In this document: piece after piece, positions 9,124 to 51,655 of the stretch
Layout: each line of letters begins with the position of its first letter
Numbering within the stretch: the first letter of the stretch is position 1
Origin: Anaerolineae bacterium
GTDB taxonomy: Bacteria > Chloroflexota > Anaerolineae > Aggregatilineales > Phototrophicaceae
DNA length: 64,000 bases
Assembly (NCBI GenBank): GCA_022843745.1
Contig: JALHNB010000015.1
Location: 1 to 64,000, forward strand
Direction of reading: 5' to 3'
The notes under the pieces: generated by a model
Databases searched by the model: none
Seen by the model: the letters and a program-made list of their open reading frames with translations, nothing else
Told to the model about the DNA's origin: nothing
Program-made: the position numbers and the translations under genes

Positions 9124-9741
9124 CGCGTATCAGCCCGTCAGCTAGTCAGCATTTCAGCTAGAACTCGGTCAAAAATTGGGTGGTCAGGGTATTTCAAGGG
9201 TAGGTTTTTAATGCAACCTCACCCCCAGCCCCTCTCCGCAAGCGAGAGAGGGGAGAAAAAAAGAAGCTTTGGGATGAGGAAATGGTATCGAAAACAAAAA
9301 ATCACCTCTGAAAGGTCGGCATGGTGGGTTTTCAGATGGGCGCACGGCTGTGCGCCCCTACAAGTCATGTGTTCACCATAGGGTTCAAAATTAGCGCAAA
9401 TGTGCGATGAATGCAATGGGAATTGGCGGCAAAAGCCATAAGATGCGACGGGAATAGGGCAATCGTAGTCTGTGCGGCAAGAAGGGGGAAGCTGGTTTTG
9501 GTAGGATGGGAAAAGCGGGTCAGCGTATGGGTTCATGAGGGCGCACAGCCGTGCGCCCCTACAAAGCCAAATCCGTTCGATAGGCACTTAGCGGTTAGCA
9601 AAAGACCCGAATACGGAAAGGTTGATCCGTTAAAAGAGTTTCGATGATAAAGAAAATGGGTATTCAAAACGCAAATATTAAAGACAAAAACAATTGGAGA
9701 GTTGTATTAGTATGCAAGCATTATGCTTAGACAAAGGTTTT
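9124..9741. repeat. Repeat-filled intergenic region, including an R3 element
   Basis: An R3 element lies at about 9186-9318: inverted ends TTTCAAGGGTAGG and CACCTCTGAAAGG flank an R2 hairpin (CTCACCCCC...GAGAGGGGAG). The homologous block inside the glycosidase-like gene at 49181-49304 shows that this is a mobile unit. R1 palindromes lie at 9338-9361 and about 9538-9562 (cores CGCACGGCTGTGCG and CGCACAGCCGTGCG). No gene is supported. Confidence 0.7.
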
Positions 9742-15347: not shown

Positions 15348-16520
15348 GTGAAGCGAAAATTGTTGTTTTTGAGTCTGATGTTGTTGGTGTTTGGGTATGG
15401 GGTGGTTGGGGCGCAGGTGGCGACGGATTTTGTGGTGTATTCGACAGGGCAGATGTTTGAAAATGGCGTGATGCTGTGGCGGGCGGACACGGGGTTTGTG
15501 TGGTCGCTGGCGCGGGATGGGCAGGTCTTCAATTTTCCGCTGGATGCGTATGCCACACTACCGGAAAATCGCAACCGCGAGAATCGGACGTTTTGGCCGC
15601 AGTTCGGATTCGGGAAAATCTGGGCGAATAACCAGCATATTCGTGATCTGTTTGGCGGGGCGATCTGGCAGGAAGTCGGCTTCAACATGGGCGTTCACCA
15701 GGAGGGCAGCACGTATTATCTGCGGCAGACGAACGGCACGATTTACCAGATCAGGCCGAATAATACCTGGGAATATGTGCAGGAGATGCCCAATTCTGGC
15801 GTGCCGATTATTTATAATTTTGATGTATCACCGAATCCGGCCAGCGCGGGGACGACACTTTCGCTTAATTGGAGCATGGCAGGCGCGGAAGTGGCGCTGA
15901 TCGAAGCCTATGATGTGACGAACGACATTATGATGGAGCTGATCCCGGATTTGCCGCTGGCAGGAATGACGACATTTGAGATTCCAGCGGACATATCGGC
16001 GACAGCTATTGAGTTCCGGCTGTATGCGGCGAATCGAGGCGAGTCAGACACGGATGCGCTTTACAAACGGCTGATTTACACCCTGGCGACGGTGGAGGTC
16101 ATAGGGCCGATGATCTATGAAAATAACCCCGGCGCGACGTTTCAACAATTTGAGCGCGGATTCATGATCTGGCGGGCGGATACGAACGATATTTATGTGC
16201 TGTACAATGCCAGAAATTCAGGGACGAATGGAGGCGGGTCGTATACGATTTATTCTGGTGGCGAATATGTCGGTCTGCCGGAGAATCCGATTAGCAACGT
16301 GCCAGCGGGTCGCATCCGCCCGGAAAATGGTTTTGGCAAGGTGTGGGGGAATATTCCACAGGTGCGCAACCAGATCGGCTGGGCAACACTGGCCGAAACG
16401 GGGTATCTGGCGGCGGCGCGGTTGGAAAACAGCGTGCCGGTGGCGATCACGATCCCTGATGGGCGGACGGTGTATCTGGATGCGGCGGGGAGTCGGTGGG
16501 ATTGGGTGGATGGGCGGTAG
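15348..16520 (+). CDS. Secreted protein with a duplicated GFGK-W module
   Basis: The GTG at 15348 is chosen because GGAAGGGG lies upstream and the product starts with KRKLLFLSLMLLVFGYGVVGAQ, a signal peptide. The protein is 390 residues. Two homologous segments flank a central beta domain. The first has FENGVMLWRADTG, then PENRNREN, QFGFGKIWANNQHIRDLFG and EVGF. The second has FERGFMIWRADTN, PENPIS, ENGFGKVWGNIPQVRNQIG and ETGY. This points to internal duplication of a roughly 100-residue module. The middle part (FDVSPNPASAGTTLSLNWSM) resembles an immunoglobulin-like fold. I recognise no named family; a cell-surface role is inferred. Confidence 0.75.
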   Translation: MKRKLLFLSLMLLVFGYGVVGAQVATDFVVYSTGQMFENGVMLWRADTGFVWSLARDGQVFNFPLDAYATLPENRNRENRTFWPQFGFGKIWANNQHIRDLFGGAIWQEVGFNMGVHQEGSTYYLRQTNGTIYQIRPNNTWEYVQEMPNSGVPIIYNFDVSPNPASAGTTLSLNWSMAGAEVALIEAYDVTNDIMMELIPDLPLAGMTTFEIPADISATAIEFRLYAANRGESDTDALYKRLIYTLATVEVIGPMIYENNPGATFQQFERGFMIWRADTNDIYVLYNARNSGTNGGGSYTIYSGGEYVGLPENPISNVPAGRIRPENGFGKVWGNIPQVRNQIGWATLAETGYLAAARLENSVPVAITIPDGRTVYLDAAGSRWDWVDGR

Positions 16521-26091: not shown

Positions 26092-26142
26092 GCGGGTCAG
26101 CGGGTGTCGTTTCACAGAACCCCTCCCCTCAATCCTTTTCAA

Positions 26143-26250
26143 GGGTAGGTTTTTAATACAACCTCACCCCCAACCCCTCTCCGCAAGCGAGAGAGGGGAG
26201 AAAAACAGGGGATTTGGGGTAAACAATCGATGATAAAAACAAAAACCTGC
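26143..26250. repeat. R3 element downstream of the sugar permease
   Basis: The block opens AAGGGTAGGTTTTTAATAC, contains an R2 hairpin (CTCACCCCCAACCCCTCTCC...GAGAGGGGAG) and ends near AAAAACAAAAACCTGCC. It parallels 9186-9318 and the coding copy at 49181-49304. An additional R2 fragment follows at about 26270-26300. Confidence 0.65.
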
Positions 26251-26340
26251 CATAGAAAACCCCAGACCATCCCCATTTCGCAAGCTCATGGAGAGGGGAG
26301 CAAAAGGCGGTTGCTGGGCGGCGGAAGCGATCAAAATGGA

Positions 26341-26471: not shown

Positions 26472-29237
26472 ATGAGCGCCCATAATCTGCCACGACCATC
26501 TACGCCCTTTGTCGGCAGAGCCGAGGAAGTGGCGCAAATCGCACACCTGCTCAATGGTGGTGACTGCCGCCTGCTAACCCTGACTGGCACGGGTGGGATC
26601 GGCAAAACGCGGCTGGCGGTTGAAGTGACGCAGATGATTGCGAGGATGAGCGAAAAACAGGTTGCCCCGACGACCTTCGCACATGGTGTTCATTTCGTAA
26701 ATTTCCAGCCTGTCGCATCTATTGACGTATTTGCCTCCACCGTGGCGGATGCGCTCAACATTACGGGACGGGAACATCCCCAAACCCGCCTCCTGAACTT
26801 CCTCCGCGAGAAAGAAATGCTGCTGGTGTTCGATAATCTTGAGCATTTGCTAAATGGCATTGAGTGGATTAGTGATGTGTTGGCAAACGCAAGCAAGTTA
26901 AAAATACTCACCACGTCGCGTGAAGCACTGAAGCTCCAGGAAGAATGGTTGTATCCTATTCGAGGGTTGTCGTTTCCTACCGATACCGATGAAAGTGAAG
27001 TCGAACGATATGAGGCTGTCCAGGTTTTTCTCCAAAGCGCCCGCCGTGTACAGCCGGACTTTTTGATCGCTCGTGAGCAGAGAGGGTTGATTCGTATCTG
27101 CCGCCAAACAGAAGGCATTCCATTGGCGGTGGAAATGGCGGCTTCATGGGTCAATGTGCTGTCATGCGAGCAGATCGCTGATGAAATGCAGAACAGCATG
27201 AATTTTTTGACAGCGTCTGCCCGCAATCTACCTGAACGCCACCGCAGTATGCGTGCCGTATTCGATCATTCCTGGGGGCTGTTATCTGAAAATGAGCGCC
27301 AGGTTTTCAGGAAATTATCTATTTTTCACGGCGGGTTTACATTGGATGCTGCTGAACAGGTGACTGGAGCAAAGCTGCTCGTGCTGGCGGCGCTTGTGGA
27401 AAAATCACTTGTTCGGAGGCTGCCTTCAGGCCGATGGGATATGCACCAACTGCTGCGACAATTCGCAGAGGAGAAACTTCGCGAATCTATTGAGGAAAAA
27501 AACGCTGTTCGGGATCGACACTGTGCCTATTACGCCGAGTATCTCCATCAATTGACTAAACATATGCGATCCGATGGGGAACATAGCGCCCTGCAAGCGA
27601 TTGAGAAAGAACTCGATAATGTGCGGGCGTGCTGGGAACGGGCTATCGAACAAATCAATATTGAGGCATTCAAAAAATGTCAGGAATCGCTACGCGTATT
27701 TTATCATGTACAAGATCGCTTTCATGAAGGCGAAAGCATATTTGGCAGGGCAGTGGCGGCTTTAGAGCGAGTAGAACCGGGTGAAGCGCGAGATGTTACA
27801 TTGGCGCTGCTGCTCATCGGGCATGGGAAATGCTGTTTGAGACTCGGTCAACACCAGCGGGCAAAAGAAATGCTGGAAAGCAGCGTCGCAATCCTGCGCC
27901 ATTACAAGGTCTATCGAGAACTCGGTTGGGCGCTCTATGATCTTTCGCGTGTTCTGCACGAACGAGAGGAATTCCGGGAAGCAGCGAGGGTAGAGCAGGA
28001 ATCGCTGGCGCTTGGAAAGGCCGCCGGAGACATCGCGCTCATTGCCTGGTCATATTTTGAACTAAGCTGCACCGTTCGCATGTATGGCAACTATTCCGAC
28101 TCGCTGCATTTCATGCAGGAGAGCGTTTCGCATCTCATCAAGTCCGGGGATGAGGATGGTATCGCAATTGGATTGCGCGGCCTGGGTGAACGACTGCGAG
28201 AACGCGGTGAGTATTATCGAGCAAAACCGATTTACCAGCAGGCCATTGCCATCCACCGAAAACTGAACTACAAAACAAAATTATCTACCGTGCTGGAAGG
28301 CTATGGAGCAACTCTATTCGCACTGGGCCAATATGAAGCAGCCAGGGAAATAATCGAGGAAAGCCTGGCGATTGCGCGTGAGTTAGGTTTTCCCCGCAGA
28401 CTGGCTTTTTCGTTGATTAGTCTTGCTAACGTAAGCCTGTCGCTTGGTGATCTTGATGCGGCGGAACGCTACTTTCATGAAAGCCTGATGGTTTCCACTA
28501 AAACTGCCGAACCCTGGCAGCAAGCACTATCGACAAAGGGTTTGGGACGCATCGCCTTTCGACGGGGGCAGTATGATGATGCAAAGGCGTTCTTTCAAGA
28601 AAGTCTGGTCGTCAATCGAAATATGGAATTTCGTTTAGAAACTGCCACCAGCCTTAGTGAACTGGGCAGTGTTGCAGTTGTGCAAGGAAACATGCTCGAA
28701 GCCCGACGATTTTTTCGAGACTCACTGAGTATCGGGCTTGAGATACAGCTTACGCCTGTGCTTCTCGAAATCATGATGGGTATCGCCGGATTGTTCGTGG
28801 CAGAAGGTGAACATGCAAAGGCGATAAAGCTTGTGGCGACCATCGTCGATCATCCTGCAAGTCATCATGTGGTGAAAGATAGAGCTAGAGAAGCTTCCGA
28901 GATTTTAAATCCGTTGAAGGCTGAATATTCACCACCTGCCCGGAAACGTGAGGAAGCTGTCGACGTATTAGCGGCTGAACTCCTGGGCGAACTCACTGCC
29001 ACACTGGGAGAAACTGTCCTGCAAGTCCAACAGATGCTGGTTGAACCCCTGAGCCAAAGAGAGCTGGAAGTTTTAACACTGGTCGCTGAAGGGTTTACCA
29101 ACCGGGATATTGCCATTCAGCTTTACATTGGCATCAGCACCGTCAAAAAGCACATGAACCATCTCTACCGCAAACTGGATGTCAAAAACCGCACGCAAGC
29201 CGTTGCCCGCGCCCGCGAGTATAAAATTCTGCGGTGA
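26472..29237 (+). CDS. STAND ATPase-TPR-LuxR transcriptional regulator 1
   Basis: The 921-residue regulator is of MalT/NB-ARC style. TPFVGRAEEV (11-20) opens the ATPase. The Walker A box is GTGGIGKT (39-46), Walker B is MLLVFDNLEHLL near 115, and ILTTSREAL and GIPLAVEMAASWV (the GLPLA motif) follow. Residues about 270-340 form a winged-helix segment and about 380-800 carry TPR-like helical repeats. The C-terminus is a LuxR helix-turn-helix: LSQRELEVLTLVAEGFTNRDIA and STVKKHMNHLYRKLDVKNRTQA. Such proteins change oligomeric state when a ligand binds the TPR/NB part. It has no repeat insertion after the Walker A helix, unlike its two paralogs. Confidence 0.93.
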   Translation: MSAHNLPRPSTPFVGRAEEVAQIAHLLNGGDCRLLTLTGTGGIGKTRLAVEVTQMIARMSEKQVAPTTFAHGVHFVNFQPVASIDVFASTVADALNITGREHPQTRLLNFLREKEMLLVFDNLEHLLNGIEWISDVLANASKLKILTTSREALKLQEEWLYPIRGLSFPTDTDESEVERYEAVQVFLQSARRVQPDFLIAREQRGLIRICRQTEGIPLAVEMAASWVNVLSCEQIADEMQNSMNFLTASARNLPERHRSMRAVFDHSWGLLSENERQVFRKLSIFHGGFTLDAAEQVTGAKLLVLAALVEKSLVRRLPSGRWDMHQLLRQFAEEKLRESIEEKNAVRDRHCAYYAEYLHQLTKHMRSDGEHSALQAIEKELDNVRACWERAIEQINIEAFKKCQESLRVFYHVQDRFHEGESIFGRAVAALERVEPGEARDVTLALLLIGHGKCCLRLGQHQRAKEMLESSVAILRHYKVYRELGWALYDLSRVLHEREEFREAARVEQESLALGKAAGDIALIAWSYFELSCTVRMYGNYSDSLHFMQESVSHLIKSGDEDGIAIGLRGLGERLRERGEYYRAKPIYQQAIAIHRKLNYKTKLSTVLEGYGATLFALGQYEAAREIIEESLAIARELGFPRRLAFSLISLANVSLSLGDLDAAERYFHESLMVSTKTAEPWQQALSTKGLGRIAFRRGQYDDAKAFFQESLVVNRNMEFRLETATSLSELGSVAVVQGNMLEARRFFRDSLSIGLEIQLTPVLLEIMMGIAGLFVAEGEHAKAIKLVATIVDHPASHHVVKDRAREASEILNPLKAEYSPPARKREEAVDVLAAELLGELTATLGETVLQVQQMLVEPLSQRELEVLTLVAEGFTNRDIAIQLYIGISTVKKHMNHLYRKLDVKNRTQAVARAREYKILR

Positions 29238-31812: not shown

Positions 31813-34359
31813 GTGCTGCCCCGACATTCAACGCCATTTATTGGCAGAGCCGAGGAAGTAGCCGAAATCGCGCATCTGCTCAACAATCCAGCTTGCCAAC
31901 TGCTGACGTTGGCTGGCCCCGGCGGGATTGGTAAAACGCGGCTGGCGCTGGAAGTGGCGCAAGGGTTTGCGGCGGTAGAAACAAAAGAGATCAATGACGC
32001 GCGAAACACAAGGGCAGGTCTGAGACCTGCCCCTACGCATTTTACACATGGGGTTCATTTTGTCCCGTTACAAGCGCTTGCTTCGCCCGATTTTCTGATG
32101 TCCACGATTGCCGAAACGCTGAATTTCCAGTTTCATTCCGGCGACTCAAAACAACAACTCCTGCACTATTTCCACGACAAGGTGCTGCTGCTGGTGCTGG
32201 ATAATTTTGAGCATCTGATGGACGGCGCGGAACTACTCTCTGAAATTCTGAATAACGCGCCGGGAGTGCGGATTCTGGCGACCTCACGCGAACGGCTCAA
32301 CCTGCTCGAAGAGTGGGTTTTTGATGTGCGCGAACTCCGATTTCCCACAAATGAAGGCGAAACGGAAATTGATTCTTACGACGCGGTACAGTTGTTTATG
32401 CAGCACGCGCGGCGTGTCCACAGTGGCTTTACGCTTTCGGCATCGCAAAAACCGGCTGTGATCCGCATCTGCCGTCTGGTGGGAGGGATGCCGCTGGCAA
32501 TCGAACTGGCGGCGGCATGGGTGCGAGTGCTGCCGTGCGAATCTATTGCCGACGAAATTGAGCGCAGCCTGGATATTCTGGAGTCATCGGCGCGCAACAT
32601 AGAGGATCGTCACCGGACGATATGGGCGGCGTTCGAACCCACATGGCGGCGACTGCCCGTTGATGAAGCGGACGTTTTTAAAAAGCTGGCGGTGTTTCGC
32701 GGTGGTTTTACACGCGAGGCGGCGGAGCAGATTACAGGCACATCGCTGCGCACACTTTCGGCGCTGGTCGATAAATCGCTGATCCGGCGCGAAGCGGATG
32801 GGCGTTACCAGATGCACGAACTCCTGCGCCAGTATGCCGATGAACAGCTTTCAAAAAGCGACGAAGCTGCCACAAAAACACATGACGCACACACAAACTA
32901 CTACATGAGACTTTTAGGTCGCCGGGAGATGGATCTGTATTCCGCCCGGCAGCGTGAAACCATCCAGGAATTAGAGGCTGAACTCGATAATATTCGCGCG
33001 GCCTGGCAGCAGGCTGTTGATGAGGCGAATGTGATGGCGTTCCAAACGGGAGGGTTCGCTTATTACGATTTTGCAGACCTGCGGGGGCGTTACCAGGAGG
33101 GTATTGATGCTATCGAAAAGGCAATCAAACGTCTGAAATCCATTGCGGCTGACCCAGAACGCGATTTTGCACTGGCGATTCTGCATAACGCCATCAGCGG
33201 GCTTTACATCCGTGTGGGGCGATTTGAAGAGGCGCGAAAGGCTGTTGAGACGAGCATTGCCGCTTACCGTGAACTTGGGCGGCGGCCTCATCCCGGATTC
33301 GCGACAGAACCGCTGAGTGGAATGGGGCTGCTTTCGCTGACCACAGGCGATTACGACGCGGCGGTCATGTACTGCGAAGAGGCGATTCAAGCTGTCGATG
33401 CCGATGACAAACTCAATATTATGTTCGCGAAGTATGTGTTGGCGAGCGCGACCTATTCGCAGGGAAATTCGCAAGCGGCCTTCGATCATGCACAGCAGGC
33501 TTATCAGATCAGCCAGGAATTCGGCGACGATTATTTTGGCTCGTATATTCTGATCGTGATGGGCAATGTGGCGCAAGCGCTGGAAGATTATGATAAAGCC
33601 TGGGAATACTACGAGACCAGCTACAAAATCAAGAAGGATTTTAAGGAGTACGGCGGGATGGCGTTCGCGCTGAACTACCTGGGGCGGATCGCGTTGCTGC
33701 GGGAAGATTATGCGGAAGCGAAAAGGCTTTTTCAGCAGGGATATGATCTCTATCGGGATGTCAATGATCCGGGTGGAATCGCGACATCAAATTTTGGATT
33801 GGGCGATAACGCGCTGGCAGAAGCCGAATATTCAGCAGCACAGACTTACTTTTATGACGCGCTGGTGATGGCAACAGACATCCATTGGACACCGTTAATT
33901 CTGGCGATTCTGGCCGGGGTCGGTGATCTGCTGCTGCGATCCGGTGACACCGAACAAGCGGCTGAATTATTGGCACTGGCCGCCCAGCACCCGGCAAGCG
34001 AACCGCCTACCTGCCGGAGAGCTAATCAACTGCTGAAGCAACATGCTTTGGGGAAAACACAGCGCAAAGTATCTGATCTGGATGCGACGGTGCGGCGGGT
34101 ATGCGAGATGCTTAAAGCGCCGAAGCATTATCCGATTGATACTCAACCTCTAAGCCCGAAAACGGTTGACGCGCTTTCGGAACGGGAGATCGAGATTCTG
34201 CGGCTTTTGGCGCAGGGAATGACCAACCAGGAAATTGCCGAAGCATTATTTCTCGTTCTGGGGACGATCAAGGCGCACAACAATCACATTTTCAGCAAGC
34301 TGGGCGTGAAGAATCGGACACAGGCAATCAAGCGGGCGCAGGAATTGGGGCTGATTTAG
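31813..34359 (+). CDS. STAND ATPase-TPR-LuxR transcriptional regulator 2
   Basis: The GTG at 31813 is chosen because CAGGAT lies just upstream, as in regulator 3, and because the earlier ATG at 31768 falls in the likely -10 box. The 848-residue product has TPFIGRAEEV, Walker A GPGGIGKT near residue 35, Walker B LLLVLDNFEHLM, SRERLNLLEEW, GMPLAIELAAAWV and VFKKLAVFRGGFTREAAEQI. A TPR-rich middle (FDHAQQAYQISQEFGDDYFGSYI and similar) follows. The C-terminus is LSEREIEILRLLAQGMTNQEIAEALFL, a LuxR domain. A short R1 repeat is translated in frame shortly after the Walker A helix. Regulators 2 and 3 are closer to one another than to regulator 1. Confidence 0.92.
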   Translation: MLPRHSTPFIGRAEEVAEIAHLLNNPACQLLTLAGPGGIGKTRLALEVAQGFAAVETKEINDARNTRAGLRPAPTHFTHGVHFVPLQALASPDFLMSTIAETLNFQFHSGDSKQQLLHYFHDKVLLLVLDNFEHLMDGAELLSEILNNAPGVRILATSRERLNLLEEWVFDVRELRFPTNEGETEIDSYDAVQLFMQHARRVHSGFTLSASQKPAVIRICRLVGGMPLAIELAAAWVRVLPCESIADEIERSLDILESSARNIEDRHRTIWAAFEPTWRRLPVDEADVFKKLAVFRGGFTREAAEQITGTSLRTLSALVDKSLIRREADGRYQMHELLRQYADEQLSKSDEAATKTHDAHTNYYMRLLGRREMDLYSARQRETIQELEAELDNIRAAWQQAVDEANVMAFQTGGFAYYDFADLRGRYQEGIDAIEKAIKRLKSIAADPERDFALAILHNAISGLYIRVGRFEEARKAVETSIAAYRELGRRPHPGFATEPLSGMGLLSLTTGDYDAAVMYCEEAIQAVDADDKLNIMFAKYVLASATYSQGNSQAAFDHAQQAYQISQEFGDDYFGSYILIVMGNVAQALEDYDKAWEYYETSYKIKKDFKEYGGMAFALNYLGRIALLREDYAEAKRLFQQGYDLYRDVNDPGGIATSNFGLGDNALAEAEYSAAQTYFYDALVMATDIHWTPLILAILAGVGDLLLRSGDTEQAAELLALAAQHPASEPPTCRRANQLLKQHALGKTQRKVSDLDATVRRVCEMLKAPKHYPIDTQPLSPKTVDALSEREIEILRLLAQGMTNQEIAEALFLVLGTIKAHNNHIFSKLGVKNRTQAIKRAQELGLI
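32010..32036. repeat. R1 repeat translated inside STAND regulator 2
   Basis: AGGGCAGGTCTGAGACCTGC and the following CCCTAC form an R1 palindrome within the ATPase coding region. It adds about RAGLRPAPT between the Walker A helix and the conserved FTHGVHF segment without breaking the frame. Confidence 0.85.
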
Positions 34360-34845
34360 CGAGAAGCGGGGAAGCGGGGAAGTGGGGAAGTCCACCCTCC
34401 ACCAAATCGGGTCAAGTCCAAGTCCAACCTCACCCCCAGCCCCTCTCCGCAAGCGAGAGAGGGGAGAAAAGCAGAGGGTTTATGACGCGATAGTTTTGGG
34501 GGAACTCGCGGTGGGGGTGCGCATGTGCAGCAAGGGCAGGTCTGAGAGGGTGTTGAAAAAGGGCTTCATAATACGACCCCTCCCCATTTCGCAGGCTCAT
34601 GGAGAGGGGAGAAATGCTGCTTTTAAATCCCTCGCCATGAGGGTTTACGACACGACACTTTTGGGAAATCGGCGGTGTTTGTGCGCATGGGCAGCAAGGG
34701 CAGGTCTGAGACCGGCCCCTACGGAAATACATCCCTCATAATTTCTGTGGTTAGGCTCATCAATCACGCGCGGGATACCATTTTGCGAGATGTTATTGGG
34801 GCATGTAAAATGGGCGATCAACCATGAATCAGCAGGATTTTCACG
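34360..34845. repeat. Intergenic region with R2, R1 and partial R4 repeats
   Basis: After the stop come 8-bp tandem units (GAAGCGGG) at about 34363-34390, R2 hairpins at about 34427-34465 and 34578-34612, and two partial R4 composites. The clearer one is at 34642-34721 (TTTACGACACGACACTTTTG, GGCGGTGTTTGTGCGC, R1 core). No gene is supported. Confidence 0.65.
34783..34811 (+). promoter_or_regulatory. Promoter of STAND regulator 3
   Basis: TTGCGA (34783-34788) and TAAAAT (34806-34811, preceded by TG) are separated by 17 bases. The -10 context ATGTAAAATGGG is the same as at regulator 1. Confidence 0.65.
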
Positions 34846-37425
34846 TTGATCGCATCCAAACTCCCTCGACAGTCAACACCCTTCATAGGACGCGCGAAGG
34901 AAGTGCGCGAAATTGGGCAACTGCTGGATGATCCGGCTTGCCAGCTCTTGACGCTGGTCGGCCCCGGCGGGATCGGCAAAACGCGGCTGGCGGTTGAAGT
35001 CGCAGAAGCAATTAACCCTCACCCCCAACCCCTCTTCCCACGGGGACTTCCTTCGGGCGCCCTCAAGGGGCGAGGGGAGAAAATGCAAGACGGGAGTGCA
35101 ATGGGTATCCGTACAAATTTCGCGGATGGGGTGTATTTTGTGCCATTGCAGGCGCTGACATCGCCGGATTTTATCGTGGGCGCGATTGCCGAAGCGCTTG
35201 GCTTTCAATTCTATGCGGGTGATTCCAGGCGGCAGCTTCTCGATTATCTGCGTGACAAAACGATGCTGCTGGTGATGGATAATTTTGAGCATCTGATGGA
35301 CGGCGTGACGCTGGCATCAGAGATTTTGGAGGCCGCGCCGGGGGTACGGATTCTGGTGACCTCCCGCGAACGGCTGAACCTGCTCGAAGAGTGGGTTTTT
35401 GATGTGCATGAACTCAAATATCCAACGAACGATGCCGAAGCCGAGATGGAGAATTATGAAGCGGTGCAGTTGTTCATCCAGCACGCGCAACGGGCGTATC
35501 GCAGTTTTAACCTGACGGACGAACAAAAACCCGCTATCACACGAATCTGCCGATTGGTAGATGGGATGCCGTTGGGAATCGAATTGGCGGCATCGTGGGT
35601 GCGGGTGCTGTCGTGCGATGCGATTGCCGACGAGATCGAGCGCAATCTGGACATTCTGAACACGCCCATGCGCAATATCGAACCGCGCCACCGAACCATG
35701 CGGGCGGCGTTCGAGCCAACCTGGAACAGGCTGTCTGTCGCAGAAAGTCAGGCTTTTAAGCGGCTGTCGGTTTTTCGCGGCGGTTTTTCGCGCGAGGCGG
35801 CGGAAGTCGTGGCAGGTGCTTCCCTGCGCACACTCTCGGCGCTGGTCGATAAATCGCTGCTGCGGGTGGGCGCGAACGGGCGATATGACATCCACGAACT
35901 GCTGCGACAATATGCTGGGGAGCAGCTTTCGCCGGAAGAACACGATCAGGCGCACGGACGGCACAGCGCTTATTACGCGGAAGTGCTGCACCAGCAATGG
36001 GAGCATCTCAGGGGCAGACATCAAAAACAGGCACTTCGGGAGATTGAAGCGGAACTTGATAACGTGCGGGCAAGCTGGAAATGGGCAGCCACGCACCAAC
36101 AAACCGATTCTCTCGACAAAATGATGGACAGCCTGTGGTTTTTTTATGATATTTACGCGCATAACCAGGAGGGGTGGCAGGCTTTCCAAATGGCGGTGGA
36201 GAGTCTGACTAGGGATGCGTTTTTGAGGCAACCTCACCCCCCAGCCCCCTCTCCGCAAGCAGAGAGGGGGAGTAAAAATCAGCCTGGCGAAAAAGGCATT
36301 CAAAAATCTTCTCAGGCTGAGAGTGTGACGATGGGGAGGCTGCTGGCGCAGCAGGGCGGGTTTGCGTTTAGTCTGACGCAGCCCAAGCAGGCGCGTCAAC
36401 TCCTGGAAAATGGCCTGACGATTTTGCGCCAGCATGAGGCGCATCGAGATACTGCCTTTGCGCTGCTGCGGTTGAGCGAAGTCACCATGTTTCATGAAAG
36501 TAATCCGGCAGCGGCGAAACTCTATCTTCAGGAAAGCCTGATGATTTACCAGCAAAGTGGCGACGAATGGGGAATCGCCTATGCGATACGCTGGCTGGGT
36601 TTCGCGGCGCTGCTTTTAGAGGATTTTGAGGAAGCACGGCGGCTGGGCCAGGAAAGCTTTGCCACGTATCAGAAAACGGGCGATCTGGGGGGTATGGCTA
36701 TCGCGCTTTCGATTGTGGGGCTGGCGGCGCTGGGGATGCAGGATTATCCGACTGCCAAACAAGCCGGACAGGAAAGCCTGGCATTGTGCCGGGAAATTGG
36801 CCTGCATTGGGCGATGGTGCAGGGATTGCTGGCGGCAGCAGGAGCGACCTGCGCATTGGGCGAATATGACGAATCCAGGCGATTTTTTCAGGAAAGCCTG
36901 AAGATTACATCCGAGCGCCGATTTATTGGCGATATTTTGTGGACGTTTGTGGAAAGCGCCAATTTGTGGATGGCGTTCGGCAGGCAGGAATGGGCTGTCG
37001 AGCTTCTGACGTTTTCGCTGCATTATCCGATCCCTCCGGCGATAGGCACAGCGCCGATTTTGCGTCTGCTGGCAAAACTGGAAGCGGAGATGCCTGCTGG
37101 TGTGTTCCAAGCCGCCAGCGAACGCGGAAAAATGCGCGACCTGGACGCAACTGTAAGCGAGGTGCTTGCCGAACTCGAAGCGCTGGATACCAGCGTGACG
37201 GCAGCACGTTCAACATCGTCCCGGTCATCCGTCGATTCTCTCAGCGAACGCGAAATGGAAATTCTACGACTGCTAGCGGACGGGCTGACTAATCAGCAAA
37301 TCGCTGAAAAGCTGTTCCTCGTCCTGGGAACGGTCAAATCGCATAATAACCATATTTTTAGCAAACTCGGCGTGAAAAACCGGACACAGGCGATTAAGCG
37401 GGCAGGGGAGTTGGGGTTGGTTTAG
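34846..37425 (+). CDS. STAND ATPase-TPR-LuxR transcriptional regulator 3
   Basis: The start is a TTG at 34846 with CAGGAT upstream. The 859-residue protein matches regulator 2 closely: TPFIGRAKEV, Walker A GPGGIGKT (39-46), Walker B MLLVMDNFEHLM, ILVTSRERLNLLEEW, GMPLGIELAASWV and FKRLSVFRGGFSREAAEVV. Helical TPR repeats such as ARRLGQESFATYQKTGDLGG follow, then a C-terminal LuxR domain (LSEREMEILRLLADGLTNQQIAEKLFL). Two repeat-derived peptides are embedded: one after the Walker A helix (35014-35083) and one between the winged helix and the TPRs (36229-36277). Both keep the frame. The HET-like gene follows on the same strand. Confidence 0.92.
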   Translation: MIASKLPRQSTPFIGRAKEVREIGQLLDDPACQLLTLVGPGGIGKTRLAVEVAEAINPHPQPLFPRGLPSGALKGRGEKMQDGSAMGIRTNFADGVYFVPLQALTSPDFIVGAIAEALGFQFYAGDSRRQLLDYLRDKTMLLVMDNFEHLMDGVTLASEILEAAPGVRILVTSRERLNLLEEWVFDVHELKYPTNDAEAEMENYEAVQLFIQHAQRAYRSFNLTDEQKPAITRICRLVDGMPLGIELAASWVRVLSCDAIADEIERNLDILNTPMRNIEPRHRTMRAAFEPTWNRLSVAESQAFKRLSVFRGGFSREAAEVVAGASLRTLSALVDKSLLRVGANGRYDIHELLRQYAGEQLSPEEHDQAHGRHSAYYAEVLHQQWEHLRGRHQKQALREIEAELDNVRASWKWAATHQQTDSLDKMMDSLWFFYDIYAHNQEGWQAFQMAVESLTRDAFLRQPHPPAPSPQAERGSKNQPGEKGIQKSSQAESVTMGRLLAQQGGFAFSLTQPKQARQLLENGLTILRQHEAHRDTAFALLRLSEVTMFHESNPAAAKLYLQESLMIYQQSGDEWGIAYAIRWLGFAALLLEDFEEARRLGQESFATYQKTGDLGGMAIALSIVGLAALGMQDYPTAKQAGQESLALCREIGLHWAMVQGLLAAAGATCALGEYDESRRFFQESLKITSERRFIGDILWTFVESANLWMAFGRQEWAVELLTFSLHYPIPPAIGTAPILRLLAKLEAEMPAGVFQAASERGKMRDLDATVSEVLAELEALDTSVTAARSTSSRSSVDSLSEREMEILRLLADGLTNQQIAEKLFLVLGTVKSHNNHIFSKLGVKNRTQAIKRAGELGLV
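35014..35083. repeat. R2-like repeat translated inside STAND regulator 3 (site 1)
   Basis: CCCTCACCCCCAACCCCTCT and a downstream CAAGGGGCGAGGGGAGAAAA are R2 ends. Between them a Pro/Gly-rich peptide (PHPQPLFPRGLPSGALKGRG) is encoded. The position corresponds to the R1 insertion in regulator 2. Confidence 0.85.
36229..36277. repeat. R2 repeat translated inside STAND regulator 3 (site 2)
   Basis: CAACCTCACCCCCCAGCCCC with a downstream GCAGAGAGGGGGAGTAAAAA encodes QPHPPAPSPQAERGSK in frame. The segment is absent from regulators 1 and 2. Confidence 0.85.
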
Positions 37426-44133: not shown

Positions 44134-44976
44134 ATGAACACGTCATCAACAAAAGAAATCACAATCGACAAGGTAGTTCGTGTGCCGCAGGTCTATTTCG
44201 CGAACGTGCAGCTTTCTACGGGCATAGACATGCACTATGCGGAATATGGGGATGCCGACGGAGAACCCATCCTCTTTCTGCATGGTTTCACCGACTCGTG
44301 GTTCTCGTTCAGCCCAGTTCTGGAATACCTGCCGCCGAAATATCACGTTTTTATGCTGGATCAGCGCGGGCATGGGAATTCCAGTAAGCCTGAGACGGGA
44401 TATGAAATCGGTGATTTTGCCGCTGATGCCATCGCGTTTATGAAGGCCTTGAAGCTAGAGCCGGTTACACTTATCGGGCATTCGATGGGCAGCTTTGTGG
44501 CGCAGCGTGTAGCCGTGACCGCGCCAGAGCTTTTATCACGGCTCATTCTGGTTGGCTCGGCGGCTGACCCACGCACGGATGACATGACGGGATTTCTTGA
44601 GGCGGTAATGGCCCTGGAAGACCCGGTTCCAGAAGCATTCGCACGGGACTTCCAGATCAGCACGATCTATAGGGAACTGCCCGATGATTTCATGCTCAAG
44701 GTCGTTTCGGAGAGCATGAAGCTGCCAGCACTGGTGTGGCGATTGGCCTTAAGCCATATCCTCAGCAGCAGCGTCATATCGCCGCTTGATCGCATTCAGA
44801 TGCCAACTCTGGTGATATGGGGTGATCGGGATACGATTTTTTCCAAAGCCGAGCAGGAAGTGTTGACGGCAAGCATTCCCCAGGCAGAGCTGCATGTCTA
44901 TGAGGAAACAGGTCACGCGCTGCATTGGGAACAGCCTGAGCAGTTCGCACGCCAGCTTGAGGCGTTCATACGTTAG
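44134..44976 (+). CDS. Alpha/beta hydrolase 1 (tandem pair)
   Basis: The ATG at 44134 has AGGAGA upstream. The 280-residue enzyme has the oxyanion loop LFLHGFTDSW, the nucleophile elbow GHSMGS (Ser117), the acid Asp in LVIWGDRDT and the base His in ETGHALHWEQP. This is a complete catalytic triad of the epoxide-hydrolase/haloperoxidase-like branch. It is exported or cytoplasmic without a visible signal. The next gene begins 32 bases later and is very similar over its full length, so the pair arose by tandem duplication. Confidence 0.93.
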   Translation: MNTSSTKEITIDKVVRVPQVYFANVQLSTGIDMHYAEYGDADGEPILFLHGFTDSWFSFSPVLEYLPPKYHVFMLDQRGHGNSSKPETGYEIGDFAADAIAFMKALKLEPVTLIGHSMGSFVAQRVAVTAPELLSRLILVGSAADPRTDDMTGFLEAVMALEDPVPEAFARDFQISTIYRELPDDFMLKVVSESMKLPALVWRLALSHILSSSVISPLDRIQMPTLVIWGDRDTIFSKAEQEVLTASIPQAELHVYEETGHALHWEQPEQFARQLEAFIR

Positions 44977-45007: not shown

Positions 45008-45859
45008 ATGGATTCACGATCAACAAAAGAAGTCATGCTCGACCAGATTGTCCAGGTGCCGCAGGTGCATTTCGCGACGATACAGCTTTCAACAGGCATT
45101 GATATGCACTACGCCGAATATGGCGACCCGGCGAGGAAACCAATTGTCTTTCTACATGGTTTCACCGACTCGTGGTTCTCATTTAGCCCGGTGCTGAAAT
45201 ATCTGCCGCCGAACTATCACGTTTTAATGCTCGATCATCGCGGGCATGGGAATTCCAGCAAGCCGGAGACGGGGTATGAAATCGGTGATTTTGCTGCCGA
45301 TACGATTGCGTTTATGAGCGCGTTGGAGCTTCAGAATGTCACATTGATCGGTCATTCGTTGGGCAGTTTTATCGCGCAGCGTGTGGCCGTGACCACGCCG
45401 GAATTGATCGCACGGCTGATTCTGATTGGATCATCAAATGACCCACGCACGGATGATCTGATGCCCTTTCTGGACGCCGTGAACGCTTTGGAAGACCCCG
45501 TTCCGGAAGAATTCGCGCGTGGATTCCAGGTCAGCACCATTTATGGGAATCTCAGTGACGAGTTCATGCGACAGGTGGTTTCCGAAAGCATGAAGCTGCC
45601 GGCGCGCGTATGGCATCAGACATTAAATGAACTTCTGAGCGAAAAAGGTATCACGCCATTTGCGCAGATTCAGATGCCGACGCTTATTCTCTGGGGCGAG
45701 CAGGATACAACCTGGCTGAGGGCAGCGCAGGAGATATTGGCAGCAGGGATTCCCCAGGCAGAATTGGTCATCTACGAGGAAACGGGTCACGCGCTGCATT
45801 GGGAACAGCCTGAGCGATTTGCGCGTGAGCTTGAGGATTTTATGGCGGTGCGTGGTTAG
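45008..45859 (+). CDS. Alpha/beta hydrolase 2 (tandem pair)
   Basis: The ATG at 45008 has ACAGGAGATATC upstream. The 283-residue product aligns with hydrolase 1 from STKE onward: VFLHGFTDSWFSFSPV, the nucleophile elbow GHSLGS, LILWGEQDTTW and ETGHALHWEQPERFA. The acid region reads GEQDT where the sister has GDRDT, so the catalytic Asp is probably the later one in both. A strong terminator follows, ending the transcription unit. Confidence 0.93.
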   Translation: MDSRSTKEVMLDQIVQVPQVHFATIQLSTGIDMHYAEYGDPARKPIVFLHGFTDSWFSFSPVLKYLPPNYHVLMLDHRGHGNSSKPETGYEIGDFAADTIAFMSALELQNVTLIGHSLGSFIAQRVAVTTPELIARLILIGSSNDPRTDDLMPFLDAVNALEDPVPEEFARGFQVSTIYGNLSDEFMRQVVSESMKLPARVWHQTLNELLSEKGITPFAQIQMPTLILWGEQDTTWLRAAQEILAAGIPQAELVIYEETGHALHWEQPERFARELEDFMAVRG

Positions 45860-48166: not shown

Positions 48167-51100
48167 ATGGTGCTTGTTCTGAAAATGAATGAGATCATAA
48201 ATCGTATGCTCAAAAACCTTCCAAAGTTCTACACCCGTGCTGCGGTACTGCTGATGCTCGGTATCGCGCTAATCTCCGTCCGACCTCCTCAAATAACCAG
48301 CCAAGAGTCGATTATCAACCTCGTGGTGAACGGGGATTTTGAAACGGGCGATCTATCGGCATGGGAAGAAATCGGAAACACGACAATCGACTCGCAGGAT
48401 CAACATGCGGGGACTTTTTCGGCGCATGTGACGGATTCCTCCACGCCGCGTCAGGGCTGGATTGAGGTCACGCCGGGGAAAACCTATGTGGCTACGGCGT
48501 GGTTTAAATGGGTGGCGATGTCCGACAGCGATTGGGGCAGCAGCCGATTTACCGTCAATGACGGGGATTTTCAGGAAATCGGCGGGATCAGTAATTTGGA
48601 TCAACGCTACGAGCAAAATATCTGGAACAAGATCGCGTTCACGTTCGTGCCAGCCACAGACCTCGTGATGGTCAGTTTCGGCGTGTTTGGGCCGGAGTCT
48701 ACGATTGACCTGTATTTTGATGACATCATGCTGTTTGAAAAAACGAGCAATGTTCCGGCAGAAATTCAGCCGGAAGCAGATGTTATCAGCGGCACACCGC
48801 CATTAATCGTGAGTTTTTCCGCGAATGCCGACGACAGCGATGGGGCAGTCGCGTTGTATCAGTGGACATTTGGGGATGGCGCAGAGGCGAGAACCGCCAA
48901 CGCCGAGCACACCTATGTTTCGCAAGGCACATTCACCGCCACGCTCAATGCGTTTGACAACGACGGCGCGAAATCCAGCCAAAATCTGGTTATCACCGTG
49001 ACCGATCCGCAAGCGCCTCAAATCGAAATCAGCGCACCATCGTCGACGGAATTATTCACGACAGCGGACGCGGTGACAGCGCTTTCTGGCACAACACACT
49101 CGGATTCCAGCCCGATTGCCAGCGTGGTCTGGGATAATGTGAGTTCGGGCGATGCGGGTGAAGCACCCCTCACCCCCAGCCTTTCAGTAGGTATTTTATG
49201 CAACCCCTCACCCCCAACCCCTCTCCCTCAAGGGGCGAGGGGAGAAAAACAGAGGTTTTGGGATGAGGAAACTGTGCCAAAAACAAAAAGCCTACCCCTG
49301 AAAGTCGCGCCCCTCGCTTACGCGACAGAGGGAGGGGGTGAGGAATGCGAGACATTCAATTGGGCTGTCGAGGCGATTCCTTTGAAGCCGGGCGAGAATG
49401 AGATACTTATCACGGCAACAGATGCGGAGGGTAAGGTCGCGACGGATCGGATATGGATTACCCGAAGCATTGACGCACCCTCTATCGAAAATATTTCAAC
49501 GAATACGACCACGCCGCGAGTCTATGAAAAATATGAGGTGACGTTTGATGTCACCACCATCGCCGAGCAGTACATGTTTATGTACGATCCTGACCCGCCG
49601 GAAGGGGTCGAGCACTATTCCGGCGTGACGGTTGAAGGGGTCATCATGCTGCCGGACGGCGAGCAGGTTACGCATCCGGCGTTTTATTTTGAGGGTACGA
49701 CACGGGTCGGAAATATTTACGAACTCACGGGCGAGCAAAACTGGAAGCTGCGATACAGCCCCCAGCAGACGGGTGTTCATCAGGTTTCGCTGCGAGTCAC
49801 CGATCAATCAGGAACGGTCACGACTCCGGTTGGGTCATTTACCGCCGAAGCGCCGATTCGACCCGGATTTATTCAAGTCTCGGAGCATGACCCGCGCTAT
49901 TTTGAGTATTCGAACGGCACGCTGCATTGGCCTATTGGCATGACGTGGACGGGGGCGGAAATTCCAGAAAACGGGGAAGCGCCTTCGGTGATTAATTATG
50001 ATCGCCCCTGGATGGCGGGAAGGGGCGCGTGGTCTGCAAACTGGGCGCGGTGGAAAAGCAGCGCTGAACAACATGGCAACGAAGGCAGAGGGATTCATTA
50101 CAGCATTCTTGAGCATTATCCCGGCAGCGAGATTTCGCAGTATATTCACACGCCTGACGGCTCCCGAATGTGGATTAGCTGCTTCCTGGACGAGGATTTT
50201 TGCGCCCAGATCGAAAGCGGGAGAACGTATCAGGTCAAGCTGCGGGTGAAAACGCAAGGGATCAACGGGCCAGCGCAAGCCGATTTACCTTATGGATTGG
50301 TCATCAAAAATCACGATTGGCCGCCGGACGATTTTGAGAGAGAAATGCGATCCGCACCAAGCTGGATACCGATGATTGACCAGGATAAAGACTGGCACAC
50401 TATCGTCACCCGCGTGACCGCGCAGAATGACAGCGATGATTTCACCATTTATCTGGATAACGTGACCGCCGGGGAAGCGTTTGTTGATGAATTTTCCATC
50501 CGCGAGGTGCTGGCAGATGGCTCATTGGGGCCGGAGCAGATTCGCAATCCGAGGGCTGACTGGCATACTTATGTCGAGCAGCGCCCGATGGCGGCCTTTG
50601 ACGAAGCGATCACCACAGGGGAAACCAACGGCATCAACCTGCGCTATGTCGTGCATGATAAAAATGACCGTCTGATTAATTCGCTCACCGCTTATGGCGT
50701 GTTCGCGGATTTTGGCGGCGGGTATTATCAACCGGAAAATACCAAAGCTACGTGGCTGCAAAAGCAGTGGTGGCGATACCTTGTTGCGCGGCTGGGATAT
50801 TCGACAGCCGTGTTTGGCTGGGAACTCAACAATGAAGGCCCGCCGGACGACGGAACAGGCAGCCACGCCCGAACCGCGCAGATTTTTGCCCGATGGGTAC
50901 ACGAACTGGACGCTCATCCTCACCTCGCGAATACGTCGTTCTGGTGCTGCTGGGAGCCGACATTCTGGGGCGACGATTCACAGTTTCCCGATGTGGATTT
51001 TGGCGATATTCACCATTATGGCCCGGCAACGGATATGGTGCAGTGGTATCTCGACGAGGCGATCCCCGTTATTAGTTCCCAGGTGGGCAAGCCTGTGGTG

Positions 51101-51655
51101 CGGGGCGAAACCGGAATTATGGAAGGCAGCAGCACCAATGACCCGGATTCGTCGTTACTCAGCCCGAATCCGGGTATCTGGTATCACAACATGCTCTGGA
51201 GTCAGCTTCACTACTCGGCGATGTTTGAGATTGGGTACTGGTATTCGGAACATGGCGAGGCGATTATCGGCGGACGCACCCCACACGCGAGGGCATTCGC
51301 AAATTTCGTCCACGATTTAGACCTCAACGCGGGCGGGTATGAGGACATCGCGGCGACGAGCGATCAGGCGAAATTTCGCATTCTCGGTCAGAAGAATATC
51401 GCCAAAAACAGCGCTCACGGGTGGATTAACCATTCCGATCACACCTGGAAAAACGTGATGGATTATGGTGTGCCAGCGGCGGTATCGGGGACGGTGAGTT
51501 TTAGCATGAATCCGAACACTTTTTACACCGTGAGCTGGTACGACACGTATAGCGGAAGCTTCATCCGTGTCGAGCAGATTATTACGGATGCTTCGGGCAA
51601 CTTGACGCTTTCAGTTGAAAATCTGAGTGCGGATGTGGCGTTTAAGATCGATTAA
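48167..51655 (+). CDS. Large secreted glycosidase-like protein with carbohydrate-binding and PKD domains
   Basis: The 1162-residue product has alternative starts at 48185 or 48206. A signal segment (AAVLLMLGIALISV) is followed by a carbohydrate-binding-like beta-sandwich (NLVVNGDFETGDLSAW to TIDLYFDDIMLFE, about 45-192), then a PKD domain (PPLIVSFSANADDSDG, YQWTFGDG, about 205-285). After further beta domains comes a catalytic-like region: LHWPIGMTWTG, GWELNNEGPPDDG (candidate acid/base Glu near 888) and KPVVRGETGIMEG (candidate nucleophile Glu near 980), the pattern of clan GH-A glycosidases. An insert of about 60 residues near 333-392 is made of nested repeats. Substrate unknown. Confidence 0.8.
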   Translation: MVLVLKMNEIINRMLKNLPKFYTRAAVLLMLGIALISVRPPQITSQESIINLVVNGDFETGDLSAWEEIGNTTIDSQDQHAGTFSAHVTDSSTPRQGWIEVTPGKTYVATAWFKWVAMSDSDWGSSRFTVNDGDFQEIGGISNLDQRYEQNIWNKIAFTFVPATDLVMVSFGVFGPESTIDLYFDDIMLFEKTSNVPAEIQPEADVISGTPPLIVSFSANADDSDGAVALYQWTFGDGAEARTANAEHTYVSQGTFTATLNAFDNDGAKSSQNLVITVTDPQAPQIEISAPSSTELFTTADAVTALSGTTHSDSSPIASVVWDNVSSGDAGEAPLTPSLSVGILCNPSPPTPLPQGARGEKQRFWDEETVPKTKSLPLKVAPLAYATEGGGEECETFNWAVEAIPLKPGENEILITATDAEGKVATDRIWITRSIDAPSIENISTNTTTPRVYEKYEVTFDVTTIAEQYMFMYDPDPPEGVEHYSGVTVEGVIMLPDGEQVTHPAFYFEGTTRVGNIYELTGEQNWKLRYSPQQTGVHQVSLRVTDQSGTVTTPVGSFTAEAPIRPGFIQVSEHDPRYFEYSNGTLHWPIGMTWTGAEIPENGEAPSVINYDRPWMAGRGAWSANWARWKSSAEQHGNEGRGIHYSILEHYPGSEISQYIHTPDGSRMWISCFLDEDFCAQIESGRTYQVKLRVKTQGINGPAQADLPYGLVIKNHDWPPDDFEREMRSAPSWIPMIDQDKDWHTIVTRVTAQNDSDDFTIYLDNVTAGEAFVDEFSIREVLADGSLGPEQIRNPRADWHTYVEQRPMAAFDEAITTGETNGINLRYVVHDKNDRLINSLTAYGVFADFGGGYYQPENTKATWLQKQWWRYLVARLGYSTAVFGWELNNEGPPDDGTGSHARTAQIFARWVHELDAHPHLANTSFWCCWEPTFWGDDSQFPDVDFGDIHHYGPATDMVQWYLDEAIPVISSQVGKPVVRGETGIMEGSSTNDPDSSLLSPNPGIWYHNMLWSQLHYSAMFEIGYWYSEHGEAIIGGRTPHARAFANFVHDLDLNAGGYEDIAATSDQAKFRILGQKNIAKNSAHGWINHSDHTWKNVMDYGVPAAVSGTVSFSMNPNTFYTVSWYDTYSGSFIRVEQIITDASGNLTLSVENLSADVAFKID
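49165..49343. repeat. Nested R3-in-R2 repeat inside the glycosidase-like coding region
   Basis: The outer parts (CACCCCTCACCCCCAG at 49165-49180, and 49305-49343 ending GGAGGGGGTGAGG) resemble R2 ends. Between them 49181-49304 is an R3 element with inverted ends CTTTCAGTAGG and CCTACCCCTGAAAG and an internal R2 hairpin. The whole block is translated without a stop. Confidence 0.8.

Follow-up and report, generated by a model that had tools for sequence, protein, structure and literature searches.

A probable IS4-type MITE nested in a REP-like hairpin within a protein-coding gene of an Anaerolineae bacterium

A stack of repeats in a glycosidase-like gene

The window (the whole stretch of 64,000 nucleotides that was analyzed, which is the first 64 kb of contig C15) belongs to a draft assembly of 117 contigs with 4% contamination, from a genome of 7.96 Mb. 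Within one of its long genes, a palindromic repeat (R2) encloses a longer repeat with inverted ends (R3), which in turn is built around another R2 hairpin, so that the stacking order at the site is R2 in R3 in R2. The features of this locus, and the two other full-length R3 copies of the window, are as follows.

48167-51655, plus strand: host gene, 1162 amino acids, with CBM_4_9, PKD, an interrupted Glucodextranase-B Ig-like domain and a glycosidase-like C-terminal part
49168-49177, plus strand: left arm of the outer R2 palindrome, CCTCACCCCC
49170-49180, plus strand: candidate left copy of an 11-bp target duplication, TCACCCCCAGC, identical to the right copy at 7 of 11 positions
49181-49304, plus strand: R3, probable IS4-type MITE, 124 bp, with ends CTTTC(---)AGTAGGT ... 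GCCTACCCCTGAAAG
49204-49244, plus strand: inner R2 hairpin, carried as cargo within R3
49305-49315, plus strand: candidate right copy of the target duplication, TCGCGCCCCTC
49334-49343, plus strand: right arm of the outer R2 palindrome, GGGGGTGAGG
9191-9314, plus strand: intergenic full-length R3, flanks identical at 8 of 11 positions
26136-26259, plus strand: full-length R3 adjoining R1/R2-type hairpin sequence, flanks identical at 5 of 11 positions

The first-pass annotation had described a 124-bp R3 with inverted ends, related to an intergenic copy and lying in an R2 hairpin within a coding sequence free of stops, and our analysis bears out this description and adds the inner R2. The arms of the outer R2 are a perfect 10-bp palindromic match, and the open reading frame has zero stops across the outer R2, R3 and the inner R2. 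The gapped identity of R3 is 98/127 (77%) to the intergenic copy and 111/127 (87%) to the best copy, on contig C70. Its inverted ends agree at 14 of 20 positions, compared to 17 to 18 of 20 in the best R3 copies, because its left end is short by 3 nt. The nested stretch folds better than all 200 shuffled sequences both as DNA (181 nt, 49165-49345; z = −4.9) and as RNA (49160-49350; z = −4.3). Given that it also matches another contig at an E value of 2.8e-43 (40 of 143 candidates scored), the stretch is not a product of chance.

In a Pfam scan, the host protein matched CBM_4_9 and PKD. The sole full-length homologue found (L122, from an Anaerolineales MAG) is 47% identical to it and colinear throughout; both flanks of the insert align to this single protein, which has a 56-residue gap exactly at the R2/R3 segment. 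The comparison with orthologs lacking the insert, proposed in the first-pass annotation, therefore contradicts the alternative that the segment is a conserved part of the protein. The insert splits a Glucodextranase-B Ig-like domain between the residues GDAGEA and CETFNW. When the insert is removed and the flanks are joined, the Glucodextran_B profile is matched at positions 1-81 of 83 (E = 4e-4, below the Pfam gathering score), versus positions 51-81 only (E = 0.086) with the insert present. By these alignments, the R2/R3 segment is a late addition to the host gene. An AlphaFold model of residues 180-560, built on a two-row alignment, has a mean pLDDT of 44, a quality that does not allow the loop to be judged; the insert is its least confident region (pLDDT of about 24 to 28).

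The lengths and stop content of the repeats fit the survival of the reading frame. The window R3 plus one 11-bp duplication amounts to 135 bp, or 45 codons (138 bp for 127-bp copies), and the frame is kept for that reason. The sum of length and 11 is divisible by 3 for all 124- and 127-bp R3 copies; for 125-bp copies it leaves a remainder. The 127-bp R3 consensus is free of stops in frame +1, as well as in frames −1 and −3, and the window copy is read in frame +1, with frame −1 also open. Because R3 has zero stops in frame +1, the host gene gained a low-complexity loop, and 769 codons downstream of the insert are still open. The R2 consensus is stop-free in five of the six frames.

The R3 family, its transposase-bearing partners and its targets

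Of the 7.96 Mb of the genome, a profile scan covered about 767 kb, made up of repeat-rich contigs (about 425 kb) and 18 sample stretches. At E ≤ 1e-6 it returned 10 full R3 matches, 15 left-only and 4 right-only ones, and 32 limited to the R2 core. The full copies are 124 to 127 bp long and share a mean pairwise identity of 79%. R3 copies concentrate in contigs C15, C34, C50, C52, C68, C70, C85 and C116 (about 425 kb in sum). This clustering, together with the 4% bin contamination, raised the idea that these contigs belong to another organism. Their G+C contents, however, are similar, and a whole-genome model search (150 of 3274 candidates scored) found a nearly full-span R3 in C12 and a partial one in C73, which argues against strict confinement; tetranucleotide profiles, calculated from samples of unequal length, do not settle the origin of the contigs.

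The left-only copies (15) outnumber the right-only ones (4) and are found on C15, C52, C34, C50, C68, C85, C116 and C43. Some of them stop where the inner R2 has its 3′ end, which is what a deletion between the inner and outer R2 predicts. Judged by eye, such recombination may be the source of some partial copies, and of some only, because the end points of left-only matches are scattered between model positions 56 and 98.

R3 is short, has no transposase ORF and carries the terminal inverted repeats of three full-length elements, and thus has the makeup of a MITE. With up to one mismatch allowed, the shared end motif, TCARGGGTAGGTWTTT, was found in 30 of the 98 genomes of the bacterial family, with a maximum of 44 occurrences in a single genome, versus 0 to 3 per genome for the reversed motif. 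The full-length elements, which sit in other genera of this family, are L194 (genome G064; 1240 bp, 385-aa DDE transposase), L207 (G041; 1284 bp, 393-aa transposase, 48% identical to that of L194) and L223 (one-contig genome G080; 1394 bp, 319-aa transposase, 36% identical to that of L194), all with R3-type ends. The IS4 signature Y-2-R-3-E-6-K is present in all three transposases. L194, the one element for which the catalytic spacing was established, has D-61-D-103-E, within the IS4 range of D(60-110)D(100-150)E. Both the signature and this spacing fit the published IS4 definition (PMC2266710). The L194 transposase scores 33.9 bits against Pfam DDE_Tnp_1 (cut-off, 23) and 86.9 bits against NCBIfam IS4_2 (E = 1.3e-24), which is below the equivalog cut-off of 152.

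Relatives of the L194 transposase (E ≤ 1e-20) occur in 6 of the 98 genomes. The genome studied here yielded no transposase of the L194 group at that threshold, and a three-row transposase profile gave a single weak match in it (C41, E = 8.8e-5). Its Y1_Tnp domains amount to one good match (C101:2755-3096) plus one weak one. A RAYT origin of R3 was ruled out by the ends that R3 has in common with DDE-transposase elements and by the target duplications. At another locus, L195 (G063:C680:1-400), several end motifs of the IS group crowd into 300 bp and one element encloses a paired R2; MITEs seem to be stacked at this place.

Target duplications at R3 boundaries, which the first-pass annotation had suggested looking for, are present across the family. 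Among the sequences examined we found 44 end-to-end pairs, of which 42 were scored and 2, at contig edges, were dropped. The 42 loci were picked by eye for their end motifs (often close together) and not for duplications; they are a non-random sample, and related copies among them are not independent. The window R3 is absent from these pairs owing to the 3 nt missing from its left end, and one row (C15:26136-26586) is a script mispairing whose true copy was scored separately. A perfect 11-bp direct repeat flanks 15 of the 42 pairs, compared to 0.09 expected from re-paired flanks, and at least 9 of 11 positions match in 25 of the 42. Perfect repeats are absent at lengths of 5 to 9 and 12 to 16 bp, and one occurs at 10 bp; we attribute the excess at length 4 (8 versus 1.9 expected) to runs of G and C. 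L223, the sole copy from a one-contig genome, has a perfect 11-bp duplication, the flanks of L207 agree at 2 of 11 positions, and L194 lies at a contig edge. Among the 10 full R3 copies of this genome, the duplication is perfect in 4, matches at 8 of 11 positions in 2, and at 7, 5, 3 and 0 positions in the others (0 at C52:27737).

The flanks also identify the preferred target. R2-type words occur in the flanks of 20 of the 42 pairs versus 2.8% of background windows; two or more runs of four G or C are seen in the flanks of 27 pairs versus 6.6% of background windows. Typical targets (CCCCCAGCCCC, CCCCAAACCCC, GGGATTTAGGG and GGGGGCCGGGG) are an arm of an R2-type hairpin, and of the 38 elements shorter than 450 bp, 24 also contain R2-like words. 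Since the targets of the family are C-rich, REP-like hairpins, the nesting of R3 in R2, which the first-pass annotation had reported, is a family habit and not an accident.

That annotation had also taken the nested copy as direct evidence that R3 is mobile. Mobility is upheld, and it rests on the R3 family: on the inverted ends, the 11-bp duplications and the IS4-type partners. The window copy by itself is not direct evidence, because its flanks are identical at 7 of 11 positions, a level that 11% of random pairs reach.

R2 palindromes in other reading frames

When a repeat was counted as in frame if it had at least 80 open codons before it and at least 60 after it, 15 of 133 repeat clusters were within long open frames (17 rows, 2 of which are antisense duplicates). 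In a Pfam scan of 10 repeat-bearing ORFs, a domain clearly spans the repeat in three, a phosphoesterase (repeat at residues 184-211), a P450 (residues 391-407) and an AlkZ-like glycosylase (residues 138-165), and an Epimerase domain reaches the repeat edge in one. In the remaining ORFs the repeat is between Pfam domains (RecD2, ABC transporter and glycosyltransferase) or outside them. In-frame R2 thus resembles the Rickettsia palindromic elements (RPEs) in that its palindromes are in frame in unrelated conserved genes.

In-frame R2 copies in conserved genes are located at C15:82808-82890, C34:38951-39001, C50:20907-20992, C50:36926-37011, C70:25003-25101, C52:26381-26479 and positions 16261-16306 of a stretch of C20 (L112). 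The genes with in-frame R2 code for a phosphoesterase, a P450, AlkZ, RecD2, an ABC transporter, a glycosyltransferase and an epimerase, and the encoded peptides include SPPTPLPQGARGE. Within the window, a further in-frame R2 (36212-36277) lies in a gene for an ATPase/TPR/LuxR-type regulator (34828-37422). The window also contains paralogous repeats of 66 to 82% identity, at 44145-44444 and 45019-45318, and at 26487-26642, 31816-31971 and 34861-35016.

At four loci (L020, L023, L025 and L029, on C43, C115, C18 and C34), R2 units form opposed pairs of about 100 bp, like REPIN/BIME dimers. R1 and R2 are strongly biased to one strand on C15, C52, C34, C70, C85 and C50; over the whole of C15, for example, the R1 motif occurs 19 times on the plus strand and 0 times on the minus strand. 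On C52, the strand of R2 switches near 20 kb, where the sign of the GC skew also changes. The strand bias may reflect the direction of replication, and C50 does not fit, as it has five R1 motifs on the plus strand, none on the minus strand, and yet a negative skew.

Origin of the nested insert and comparison with known systems

We consider it likely that R3, one copy of which is nested here in an intragenic R2, is a MITE of an IS4-family group of IS elements that inserts into C-rich REP-like hairpins. An IS4-family transposase that targets such hairpins (R1/R2) and duplicates 11 bp would move the non-autonomous R3 in trans. At the window locus, an R2 palindrome would have landed in frame in a loop of the Ig-like domain of the glycosidase-like gene, and R3 would then have inserted into that R2. 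The outcome would be a low-complexity loop in a host protein 56 residues longer than its homologue, and this long protein would be made and would work.

For the window copy, transposition into R2 is the simplest reading that the sequence offers. The copy could instead have arrived by recombination between the R2 in the gene and an R2 elsewhere that already carried R3. The genome has many R2 units, the existence of 15 left-only and 4 right-only R3 copies suggests that exchange or deletion between R2 units may be common, and a clean duplication is missing at the window copy (7 of 11). Yet both R3 ends are complete save for 3 nt, and a match of 7 of 11 at the exact spacing of the family fits an eroded duplication; we regard recombination as improbable. 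We give slightly less credit to the possibility that the host gene is a pseudogene, or the stretch an assembly artefact, and that nothing is translated. Repeats of this kind can mislead assemblers, and the assembly is a draft with contamination, but the gene has 1162 stop-free codons, 769 of them downstream of the insert, both flanks match one homologue at 47% identity, and R2 repeats are in frame in other conserved genes as well. Nothing was found in favour of a third alternative, in which the segment would be ancient and conserved in the protein and its likeness to intergenic repeats secondary. We regard it as highly implausible: the homologue is without the segment, matching repeats are present at many other sites, and removal of the segment restores the domain profile.

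Beyond the insertion of R3 as an IS4-type MITE, we tentatively suggest that IS4-type MITEs act as shuttles for REP-like hairpins, with a hairpin as cargo and the same type of hairpin as target, so that repeats would grow by nesting. Equally tentative is the extension of such nesting to protein genes, where a stop-poor hairpin could be a tolerated landing pad that lengthens loops. REP-like repeats are usually treated as intergenic, and here they serve as landing sites for a mobile element with a repeat of this kind inside it. Aiming at tolerated, stop-poor hairpins would be a testable route for selfish DNA into coding sequence without breakage, and the transposase, end sequence, target and duplication length are now defined for experiments.

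Our literature search by repeat words, peptides and nesting terms found nothing on this repeat or its nesting, and the closest precedents among the sources cited here are the Rickettsia palindromic elements and the REP-targeting ISRm22. REP-targeting IS elements are known from five families, with ISRm22 of Sinorhizobium meliloti as the one IS4 member in that account, and nine of nine ISRm22 copies are in REP hairpins (PMC1525189). The group described here is like ISRm22 in its IS4-family transposase and REP-type hairpin targets. It differs from the ISRm22 account in that the C-rich hairpin targeted here belongs to a different bacterial group and full copies are fewer than the small MITEs that share their ends. 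Many of these MITEs enclose a target-type hairpin, and one is nested within a coding gene.

Within the IS4 family, the IS4 and IS231 subgroups make duplications of 10 to 13 and 10 to 12 bp, about one helix turn (PMC2266710), and share with our elements the YREK motif, a single ORF and this duplication size. The ends here, in contrast, begin with CT(T/G)TCAGGGGTAGG and not with CAT or -AATR, in elements of 1240 to 1394 bp. In Table 1 of PMC2266710, CT-permitting ends pair with duplications of 7 to 9 bp, and those of 10 to 13 bp with CAT or -AATR. The combination of CT with 11 bp therefore matches no subgroup in that table (IS4, IS231, IS10, IS50, IS4Sa, ISH8 and ISPepr1 were compared).

GTAG REPs are reported also from Chloroflexi, and REPs within genes are known from several species (PMC3733652). 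Similar to the GTAG/CGTC REPs with RAYT in that source, R2 forms hairpins, often in opposed pairs and some inside genes; unlike them, the R2 consensus is without a GTAG or CGTC tag, and R3 has long inverted ends, an 11-bp duplication and ends common to DDE-transposase elements. RPEs are palindromic repeats in frame in unrelated protein genes of Rickettsia (PMC10969869, PMC3733652). R2 resembles them in placement, and the RPE descriptions in these two sources are without a nested DDE-type MITE. What is new is the combination: a family of IS4-type MITEs that often carry their own target hairpin, with one copy nested in a hairpin that itself lies inside a gene, where the frame stays open.
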